Made by a program: the position numbers and the translations under genes
The notes under the pieces: model-generated
What the model was told of the DNA's origin: nothing
The model's input: the letters and a program-made list of their open reading frames with translations, nothing else
Database searches by the model: none
Source: Haloferax litoreum
GTDB taxonomy: Archaea; Halobacteriota; Halobacteria; Halobacteriales; Haloferacaceae
Direction of reading: 5' to 3'
Length of the DNA stretch: 64,000 bases
Assembly: GCF_009674605.1 (NCBI RefSeq)
Contig: NZ_WKJO01000001.1
Location: forward strand, 806,001-870,000
Shown here: piece by piece, positions 15,283 to 18,087 of the stretch
Layout of the letters: the number at the start of each line of letters is the position of its first letter
Position numbering within the stretch: position 1 is the first letter of the stretch

Positions 15283-16266
15283 TTAGTTCTGCGAGAGTGC
15301 GAGCGACGCGAGGAGCGCTTCGAGTTGGACCTGTTCGTTCGCCCCCTCGGAGATGCGGTAGTCGGCCTCGCCGATGCGTTCCATGAGGCGGACGGCGGCG
15401 CGTTCGTCTAGGTCGAAGTCCCAGACCGACCGGTGGAGTTGGTCGATGATGTCGCCACCGGCCATACCGGTGTCGACGATGAGCGTCTCCAGTTTCTTGC
15501 GGGCGGTGGTGAACTCGCCGTCGATGGCCGCGCGGACCATCTCTTCGATGTCTTCGGGGCGGGCCGTCGAGGTAATCATGTAGACGGCTTCCTCGTCGAC
15601 GACTTCGCCGGTCGTCGCCGCGGCCTGCAAGGAGTTGATGGCGCGACGCATGTCGCCGCCGGCGGCGTAGACGAGGGCGTCGAGACCCTCGTCGGTGAGT
15701 TCGATACCTTCGGCGGCGGCGATGTCACGAGTCTGGTCGGCGATGGCGTCGTCACCGAGTGGTGAGAAGCGGAAGACGGCACACCGCGACTGGATGGGGT
15801 CGATAATCTTCGAGGAGTAGTTACACGAGAGGATAAAGCGCGTGTTGTCGGAGAACTGCTCCATCGTCCGGCGGAGCGCCGACTGCGCGTCGTTGGTCAG
15901 CGAGTCGGCCTCGTCGAGGAAGATGATACGGTAGTCGTGGCCACCGAACGACGACCGAGCGAAGTTCTTGATTCGGTCGCGAACCACGTCGATGCCGCGC
16001 TGGTCCGAGGCGTTGAGTTCGAGGAAGTTGCCGCGCCAATCGTCGCCGTAGATTGCACGGGCGATGGCCGTCGCGGAGGTCGTCTTCCCGACGCCCGCCG
16101 GGCCCGCAAAGAGCAGGTGCGGCAGGTCGTCACGCTCGATGTAACTGCGCAGTCGCTCGACGATTTCTTCTTGTCCGTAGACGTCGTCGAGGGTCTGCGG
16201 TCGGTACTTCTCGATCCAGATTTCGCGACCCGCCGGGGTGTCGCCCGACTCCGCGGCCTCGCTCAT
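15283..16266 (-). CDS. rfcA: Replication factor C small subunit, 327 aa
   Basis: Clamp-loader ATPase that opens PCNA onto primed DNA. Walker A is GPAGVGKTT, Walker B FLDEADSL, sensor 1 SCNYSSKI and the arginine-finger box SRC in [22 protein letters not shown] is sensor 2. The C-terminal collar helices follow. All catalytic motifs are intact, in contrast to the second small subunit at 61.9-62.9 kb. The start at 16266 ([11 protein letters not shown]) gives the normal length; upstream codons read a Cys/Ala-rich leader without conservation. pcn lies 25 kb away in this window. Confidence 0.97.
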
Positions 16267-16367
16267 ATCCACTTCACAGGCGGCCGCGCACATAAAGCGT
16301 CCGAGACAACTCGCTCACCTCGAACCGGCGAAGAAAAACCGGCAGTTCGTGGCCGGCGAGACACCGC

Positions 16368-16812: not shown

Positions 16813-17019
16813 ATGGACGTAACCGTCGAAGTCGTCGGCGAGGAGACCCAAGCGGTCACCGTGGGCGACGATGGTACCTACGCGGACCTCGTCAAGGCGG
16901 TGGGCCTCAGTCCCCACGAGGTGTCCGTCCTCGTCGACGGCCGCCCCGTTCCCGAGGACCAACCAGTCGAAGTCGAACAGGTGCAGGTACTCCGCCTCAT
17001 CAAAGGCGGACGCGCCTGA
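16813..17019 (+). CDS. samp2: Ubiquitin-like small archaeal modifier protein 2 (SAMP2-type), 68 aa
   Basis: A beta-grasp protein of the MoaD/ThiS/SAMP class. DVTVEVVGEE...GTYADLVKAVGLSPHEV and VLVDGRPVPED match SAMP2, which in H. volcanii is both conjugated to lysines and used as sulfur carrier for tRNA thiolation after activation by the E1-like UbaA. The functional end is LRLIKGG, with Gly65-Gly66. Here two further codons, Arg-Ala, follow before the stop (17005-17019). SAMP2 as I remember it ends exactly at Gly-Gly, so this form should need trimming before activation. Neighbours are rfcA upstream and a peroxiredoxin-like gene downstream. Confidence 0.93.
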   Translation: MDVTVEVVGEETQAVTVGDDGTYADLVKAVGLSPHEVSVLVDGRPVPEDQPVEVEQVQVLRLIKGGRA

Positions 17020-17100
17020 CTGGCAGGTCACCGCACCCGACAGTCCGGTCTTCACGGCGGCTTTCGGTGTTTGGTAGCGAAATCGCACTCCCGCAGGGCG

Positions 17101-17108
17101 GTTATACT
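17101..17108 (+). promoter_or_regulatory. TATA element for the redoxin gene
   Basis: GTTATACT lies 23-30 bases before the GTG at 17131. This supports GTG 17131 as a leaderless start rather than the ATG 20 codons further upstream. Confidence 0.5.
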
Positions 17109-17130
17109 CGGCGTCCTCGATTTCCAGAGC

Positions 17131-17622
17131 GTGTCTGCCAACACGAACTCCCTCGACTTCGAACTGCCTAACGTCGCCGCCGGTCCCGACACGCTCTCGC
17201 CGGCCACCCTCGACGCCGACTTCCTGCTCTTGTTGCTCCAGCGAGACTACTACTGCAAAGTCTGTCGCCGGCAAGTCCAATCGGTGAAGCGGCGCTACGA
17301 CGAGTTCGAAGCACGCGATGCCGAAGTCGTCTCTGTCCTCCCCGACCCACCGGAACGCGCCGAGAAGTGGCAGCGAAGCTACGACCTGCCGTTTCCACTC
17401 CTCGCCGACCCCGGTGCCGAAGTCGGCGACGAGTTCGACCAGCCGACGCGATTCGGCGCGCTCGGTAAACTCCACGACATGGTGGGACGGATGCCCGAAG
17501 CCGTCCTCGTGGACCTCCGTGACGACAACCCGGAAGTCGTCTACACCCACCGTGGGTCGAACCCGGCCGACCGTCCCGAACTCGACGACCTGTTGACCCG
17601 TATCGACCGTATGGCCGCGTAA
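17131..17622 (+). CDS. Peroxiredoxin-like redoxin-domain protein, 163 aa
   Basis: A thioredoxin-fold AhpC/TSA-like protein: SLDFELPNV at the start, LLLQRDYYCKVCRRQVQSV with a CxxC at the redox-active position, FPLLADPGAEVGDEF and AVLVDLRDDNPEVVY. The CKVC replaces the TxxC peroxidatic site of true peroxiredoxins, so it may act as a thiol oxidoreductase or a bacterioferritin-comigratory-type peroxidase. The GTG at 17131 begins just before the conserved strand and follows a TATA element at leaderless spacing; the ATG at 17071 would add 20 unconserved residues and overlap the promoter. Confidence 0.8.
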   Translation: MSANTNSLDFELPNVAAGPDTLSPATLDADFLLLLLQRDYYCKVCRRQVQSVKRRYDEFEARDAEVVSVLPDPPERAEKWQRSYDLPFPLLADPGAEVGDEFDQPTRFGALGKLHDMVGRMPEAVLVDLRDDNPEVVYTHRGSNPADRPELDDLLTRIDRMAA

Positions 17623-17685
17623 ACCCGCTGTCGTTCGCGCTCTCACTCCGTCGGACCTTTCTCTCTCGGCATCCCATCACCGGTG

Positions 17686-18087
17686 ATGAGCGATACCGTC
17701 GTCCGCGAGGGCGGCCCGGACGAGTTGGTCGCCGTCATGCGCGTCCTCGACGCGGGACTACTCGAAGTGGCCGCCAGCGAGGTGCGCGAGCGACTCGAAA
17801 CGGGCGATTGTCTCGTCGCCGACGCGTCGGGTCGTGTCGTCGGTGCACTCGTCCTCGACGACGACTACATCGACGCAGTTGCCGTCTCACCGAGTCGACG
17901 TGGGAACGGGGTCGGGACCGCACTCGTCGAGGCCGCAGTGGCCCGGCAGGGACGTCTCGTCGCCGACTTCGACGCTCGTGTCCGTCCCTTCTACGAGTCG
18001 CTCGGCTTCTCCATCGAACCGACGTCCGAAGCGCAAGCCGACGACCGATTCCGCGGTGTTCGTGCCGATTACCGTGGGTGTCGTTAA
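17686..18087 (+). CDS. GNAT family acetyltransferase, 133 aa
   Basis: A single GNAT domain: VVGALVLDDDYIDAVAVSPSR split by the beta4-bulge, then RRGNGVGTALVEAA, the acetyl-CoA pyrophosphate loop (R/QxxGxG/A), and YESLGFSIE at the C-terminus. Substrate unknown. The ATG at 17686 follows directly on a GTG at 17683, either being possible. It lies 63 bases after the redoxin gene on the same strand. Confidence 0.88.
   Translation: MSDTVVREGGPDELVAVMRVLDAGLLEVAASEVRERLETGDCLVADASGRVVGALVLDDDYIDAVAVSPSRRGNGVGTALVEAAVARQGRLVADFDARVRPFYESLGFSIEPTSEAQADDRFRGVRADYRGCR

Follow-up and report, generated by a model that had tools for sequence, protein, structure and literature searches.

How can a ubiquitin-like modifier be activated when two further residues follow its Gly-Gly? 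The question is raised by the samp2 gene of Haloferax litoreum, which lies in the stretch of 64,000 nucleotides analysed here (the window). In SAMP2 as translated, Gly-Gly is not at the very C-terminus and Arg-Ala comes after it. From the codons of the gene, the SAMP2 genes of other haloarchaea and the distribution of the desampylase JAMM1, we consider it probable that SAMP2 is made here as a precursor that matures through a cut after Gly66, JAMM1 being the most likely protease. Translation would yield a 68-residue precursor, SAMP2-Gly-Gly-Arg-Ala, in which a protease, most likely JAMM1, would hydrolyse the bond after Gly66 and release the dipeptide Arg-Ala. UbaA would then adenylate the exposed Gly-Gly end of free SAMP2 in preparation for conjugation or sulfur transfer.

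The samp2 gene of the window and its Haloferax relatives

The codons at positions 16993-17019 are CGC CTC ATC AAA GGC GGA CGC GCC TGA, i.e., R L I K G G R A stop (Table 1). The open reading frame matches the SAMP2 models of both Pfam (PF21965; 105.7 bits, cut-off 27) and NCBIfam (NF041919; 112.7 bits, cut-off 70; residues 1-66 on model positions 1-66 of 66). Both curated cut-offs are thus passed, and Gly-Gly is present at residues 65-66, which confirms the preliminary description of a SAMP2-type modifier with Arg-Ala past its Gly-Gly. The same description gave H. volcanii SAMP2 as a protein of 66 residues ending in GG, and in the structure 4hrs the chain indeed terminates at the residue aligned with Gly66 of the window protein. 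The two proteins belong to the same family over 66 residues (PF21965, NF041919; 2l32, 4hrs) and have the same RLIKGG end region; however, H. volcanii SAMP2 terminates at Gly66, whereas that of the window continues. A terminal Gly-Gly was not taken as defining for SAMP2, because 93 of the 150 genes read in the window's own family lack it. The mature form could still possess one.

Table 1. Features of the window that bear on the SAMP2 tail.
Feature	Position	Strand	Basis
samp2: SAMP2, ThiS-family ubiquitin-like modifier, 68 residues, precursor form (predicted)	16813..17019	+	Pfam, NCBIfam, PDB 2l32/4hrs
Gly65-Gly66 di-glycine, C-terminal once trimmed (predicted cleavage after Gly66)	17005..17010	+	codon reading; Gly-Gly in 224/224 distinct SAMP2 loci
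Arg67-Ala68 tail and stop codon TGA	17011..17019	+	codon reading; RA, RA, RD, RS tails in one Haloferax clade
redoxin (AhpC/TSA, peroxiredoxin-like), start uncertain (TTG in ORF list)	17071..17622	+	Pfam PF00578 62.2 bits, synteny
GNAT acetyltransferase	17683..18087	+	Pfam PF13508 46.8 bits, synteny
replication factor C (RFC) small subunit, divergent neighbour, species-tree gene	15283..16293	-	Pfam PF08542 92.7 bits

One copy of samp2 was found in the source genome, which also encodes a ThiF-domain protein of the E1-like type. Its other ubiquitin-like proteins (L261, L262 and L263, found with the ThiS model) have Gly-Gly directly at the terminus. Scans of the window for tRNA and Rfam families gave nothing bearing on the SAMP2 tail.

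All 15 Haloferax genomes searched possess samp2; two residues follow Gly-Gly in four of them, and the stop codon comes right after Gly-Gly in the other eleven. The tails are RA in the window and in H. profundi (G012), RD in G006 and RS in H. marinum (G007). In the order window, H. profundi, G006, H. marinum, the first tail codon is CGC, CGT, CGC and CGA, and the second GCC, GCC, GAC and AGC. The four tailed Haloferax group as one clade, with a support of 0.994, in a tree of the adjacent RFC gene, for which 29 of the 30 loci L001-L030 matched and one match of 357 bases was dropped by the length filter. Because H. profundi has the same RA tail with a synonymous Arg codon (CGC/CGT), and because the two others carry RD and RS, a frameshift or sequencing slip appears unlikely as the cause of the RA tail, and an error of sequencing or assembly at the samp2 stop codon is scarcely conceivable even though the window rests on a single assembly. 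Taken alone, the four sister species with their two-residue tails could reflect neutral drift.

SAMP2 tails and fusions across haloarchaea

In the window's own family we surveyed 170 genomes, of which 156 had a SAMP2 match and 150 had the gene read (the six matched genomes outside the reading are G015, G017, G018, G027, G068 and G077). Gly-Gly is present in all 150 genes, and a tail follows it in 93. From a survey of the class (391 genomes) we used 86 genomes outside the family, which are the best matches listed, i.e., those most similar to the window SAMP2; 20 of these were read as sequence, and for the other 66 the stop column of the match listing was used. Own family, named loci and other families together gave 250 loci, or 224 distinct ones after removal of 26 duplicates. 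The comparison of SAMP2 termini across haloarchaea, which the preliminary description had proposed, showed a tail at 115 of these 224 loci, none at 109, and Gly-Gly at every one. The di-glycine is therefore kept also where it is not terminal, in 93/93 tailed genes of the family and 115/115 tailed distinct loci.

The tails themselves vary freely in sequence and length. Among the 115, none has one residue, 26 have two, 66 have 3-25 and 23 have more than 30, and the 224-locus set holds 78 different short tails. A kept Gly-Gly followed by a variable tail or a fused protein is a trait of the precursor type, and the invariance of Gly-Gly next to such freely varying tails counts for a precursor that is trimmed. 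With its RA tail, the SAMP2 of the window stands at the modest end of a series that runs from tails of 2-25 residues up to SAMP2-redoxin and SAMP2-GNAT polyproteins. Tails were found in all 49 genes read in Halorubrum (g21), where they are mostly rich in Ala, Thr, Asp and Gly, and in 10 of 12 in Halobellus (g19); none occur in g6 (0/10), g12 (0/7) and Halonotius (g13; 0/5). Tailed and tail-less SAMP2 are both present within g1, g18, g19 and g26.

The first residue of the tail is mostly small or polar. In the own family (n=93) it is A in 40 cases, S in 29, T in 8, R in 7, G in 4, D in 2 and E, H and V in one each. The residues P, L, I, V, F, W, Y, M and C thus make up 1/93 of first positions, against 26% of the codons just downstream, and 1/29 when distinct genus-residue pairs are counted (p 0.0025). 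Such a preference would be expected if something has to cut there. We also considered whether the tails arise by plain loss of the stop codon, and rejected this: a virtual read-through of the 109 tail-less loci yields at least 40 residues at 58 of them, runs off the locus end at 15 and gives two residues at one. Since stop loss would produce mostly long tails, the short ones are not simply read-through. A minimum of two residues past the cut, which the SAMP2 tails had suggested, was dropped as a general rule of tail length, as four of the 26 SAMP1 tails consist of a single residue.

Several loci show particular ends. The tails TGG and RGG of L030 and L140 restore Gly-Gly at the new C-terminus, so these two proteins might be used without trimming. 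In Halonotius roseus (L069), about 13 bases past the samp2 stop codon, the DNA reads R-L-I-K-G-G-stop again, which looks like what is left of a tandemly duplicated samp2 end. All seven SAMP2 of g12 (e.g., L147, L158) have LIAGG instead of LIKGG and have lost the lysine before Gly-Gly.

All 23 tails of more than 30 residues are in-frame fusions past Gly-Gly, 11 to a redoxin and 12 to a GNAT acetyltransferase, and these partners are the gene types found downstream of samp2 in the window. A Pfam scan of five fusions returned SAMP2 with either redoxin or GNAT. SAMP2 is fused to redoxin in three genera of the own family (g14, g16, g28) and in g37 of another family, and to GNAT in 10/10 genes read in g17 and 2/49 in g21. 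In nine SAMP2-redoxin proteins L-R-L-I-K-G-G is invariant from its second residue, while the linker varies in sequence and length. Most of the redoxin fusions examined, with the exception of L283, have no methionine between Gly-Gly and redoxin; because of this, unless translation can begin at a non-ATG codon, the redoxin of these loci seems to be made only within the precursor. Two folded parts are seen in the AlphaFold models of both fusion types, which were built on small alignments. In the SAMP2-redoxin model the pLDDT is below 50 for residues 64-74, a stretch that takes in Gly65-Gly66 and some of the linker, and this counts for a trimmed precursor. In the SAMP2-GNAT model the junction is coil (mean pLDDT 71 over residues 61-70). 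The fusions argue for an internal cut, yet they could also partly work uncut. In Haloferax, a redoxin gene lies between samp2 and the GNAT gene in the four tailed species and in H. larsenii and H. elongans; it is absent from this interval in the other nine genomes (15 loci compared, L001-L015).

JAMM1 and its association with tails

In the source genome there is a desampylase of the JAMM1 type and, besides it, a protein of the JAMM2 type. The former matches the NCBIfam model desamp_Halo (NF041370) with 187.4 bits (cut-off 130) and has P. furiosus JAMM1 among its best PDB matches; the latter has no NCBIfam match. Numbered from a GTG start, JAMM1 has E31, H88, H90, S98 and D101, which we take to be the active-site positions published for HvJAMM1 in its 2012 characterisation. 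With this protein as query, matches were obtained in 153/170 genomes of the own family and 298/391 of the class. The Pfam JAMM model, which detects both JAMM types, matched 169/170 and 391/391, respectively, and in genomes without JAMM1 its matches, among those listed, are weak only. In one genome (G238:C1:1947204-1947614) a TAG stop interrupts the JAMM1 match. In Haloferax mucosum (G010, C8:21730-21954), whose SAMP2 is tail-less, the match covers query residues 67-141 only, and JAMM1 may be truncated or diverged there.

We compared the SAMP2 end with the presence of JAMM1 in 236 genomes; the 80 named loci L031-L110 entered the reading of tails only. A tail occurs together with JAMM1 in 104 genomes and without it in none, while tail-less SAMP2 was found in 84 genomes with JAMM1 and 48 without. 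The latter 48 are all the JAMM1-lacking genomes with a known SAMP2 end, and they belong to 16 genera of 6 families. Because the RFC gene tree is the sole tree built, the test was made by genome and by genus only. By genus, SAMP2 tails occur in 17/37 with JAMM1 vs. 0/16 without (Fisher p 8.3e-4, not tree-corrected) and, within the own family, in 14/21 vs. 0/4 (p 0.026, not tree-corrected). That SAMP2 tails are found in JAMM1-bearing genomes only counts for JAMM1 as the maturing protease.

SAMP1 offers a parallel case. It was read as a control in 90 of the 165 own-family genomes with a match (L325-L414), chosen partly by a tailed SAMP2 or the absence of JAMM1. Gly-Gly is present in 90/90, and tails past PVSGG or PVTGG occur in 26/90, none of them among the 15 Haloferax. 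Tails were found in 25/75 genomes with JAMM1 vs. 1/15 without (p 0.058); the single exception, G077, carries RVAE as its tail and gave no JAMM1 match, its assembly being rated 79% complete.

Known precursors and rival explanations

Cleavage of the kind proposed has precedents. According to the accessible part of PMC4443979, HvJAMM1 cuts a linear SAMP1-MoaE fusion in vivo, depending on the C-terminal residues of SAMP1, and ESI-MS of the products matched the masses of intact SAMP1 and MoaE. There, as we propose here, JAMM1 frees at Gly-Gly a SAMP that is peptide-bonded to the sequence behind it; that fusion, however, was artificial and involved SAMP1 in H. volcanii, whereas the present tails and fusions are natural and best documented in SAMP2. 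In Caldiarchaeum subterraneum, as described in the available text of PMC6043591, archaeal modifiers likewise carry residues past Gly-Gly (nine in CsUb-pre), CsJAMM cleaves SAMP precursors, and CsRpn11 cuts CsUb-pre precisely after Gly-Gly, at a rate altered by the residues past the cut. This archaeon is distant, and its CsUb system is eukaryote-like with E2 and E3, whereas SAMP2 is ThiS-like; fused redoxin or acetyltransferase was not found described in that portion of the study. The related enzyme CsRpn11 is stopped when certain bulky or charged residues directly follow the cut (PMC6043591, same portion), and by analogy Arg67 may count against cleavage by JAMM1. Eukaryotic ubiquitin-ribosomal protein fusions and the precursors of NEDD8, SUMO and ISG15 also consist of a ubiquitin-like protein (Ubl) with Gly-Gly and then a tail or useful protein (PMC11354881, accessible part); in the haloarchaea the partners are redoxin and GNAT, and the proposed protease is of the JAMM type.

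The accessible sections of the gene-context study of Makarova and Koonin (PMC2948915) report a GNAT gene adjoining arCOG00535 in Halobacteria, archaeal Ubls with GG ends, and MoaD-MoaE and Ubl-Cgi121 fusions; SAMP2-redoxin, SAMP2-GNAT and tails past GG were not found in them. Nor did the literature searched, mostly non-subscription, yield natural tails of haloarchaeal SAMP2 or SAMP1, SAMP2-redoxin or SAMP2-GNAT polyproteins, their tie to JAMM1, or a measured terminus of mature SAMP2 from a tailed species. As a kind, Ubl precursors are already known.

The chances seem about even that a broader reading holds, in which haloarchaeal SAMP2 and SAMP1 are both cleavable precursors and SAMP2 has repeatedly become a polyprotein with a redoxin or acetyltransferase, a prokaryotic counterpart of the ubiquitin-ribosomal protein fusions. 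JAMM1 would then be an obligatory maturase besides a desampylase, its loss would demand SAMPs that lack tails, and the gene itself would fix the modifier-to-partner ratio. SAMP biochemistry so far comes largely from H. volcanii, whose SAMP2 requires no processing. If many of its close relatives do make precursors, JAMM1 also supplies free SAMP beside removing it, and Ubl polyproteins with stress enzymes occur in archaea beyond the eukaryote-like ubiquitin systems. As Haloferax is a genetic model, the predicted maturation is directly testable. C-terminal tagging, or annotation by 'ends in GG', misses about half of haloarchaeal SAMP2 genes (115/224 distinct loci tailed).

The precursor trimmed by a JAMM-type desampylase had already been suggested in the preliminary description, and the comparison supports it: Gly-Gly is retained at all tailed loci, SAMP2 tails accompany JAMM1 only, SAMP1 behaves in parallel, and HvJAMM1 cleaves a linear fusion (PMC4443979, accessible part), the cleavage in the present case being inferred. 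Trimming could also be the work of a carboxypeptidase, JAMM2 or another protease, with the JAMM1 link due to shared ancestry. This would agree with the two JAMM types co-occurring in the source genome, with an association that is not tree-corrected and with the SAMP1 exception in G077, and two-residue tails in particular might be removed by carboxypeptidases, or tolerated, instead of being cut by JAMM1. As a general explanation we find it rather unlikely, since a carboxypeptidase acting on the fusions would not set the redoxin or GNAT domain free intact, all 48 JAMM1-lacking genomes, from 16 genera and 6 families, are tail-less in SAMP2, and recombinant HvJAMM2 alone is reported as inactive (PMC4895103, accessible part).

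The other alternative of the preliminary description, that the tail blocks conjugation and leaves SAMP2 another role, or lets it work uncleaved as a domain in the tailed species, starts from a sound premise: UbaA acts on the C-terminal glycine, so SAMP2 as translated cannot be its substrate. It is nonetheless disfavoured and in our view highly improbable, because Gly-Gly is undecayed in every tailed lineage (115/115 loci), SAMP1 has the same pattern, and SAMP2, found once in the source genome, would have no stand-in if permanently blocked. A precursor cleaved after Gly66 must also be weighed against neutral tolerance, under which a two-residue tail is harmless or background proteolysis suffices, and tails drift in and out. 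The presence of both states within each of g1, g18, g19 and g26, the unconstrained tail sequences and the varying tail codons of Haloferax would fit such a drift. We judge it improbable, as tails may also span 16-177 residues or consist of an entire fused protein, SAMP2 tails are wholly missing from JAMM1-lacking genomes, and bulky residues or proline are depleted at the first tail position.
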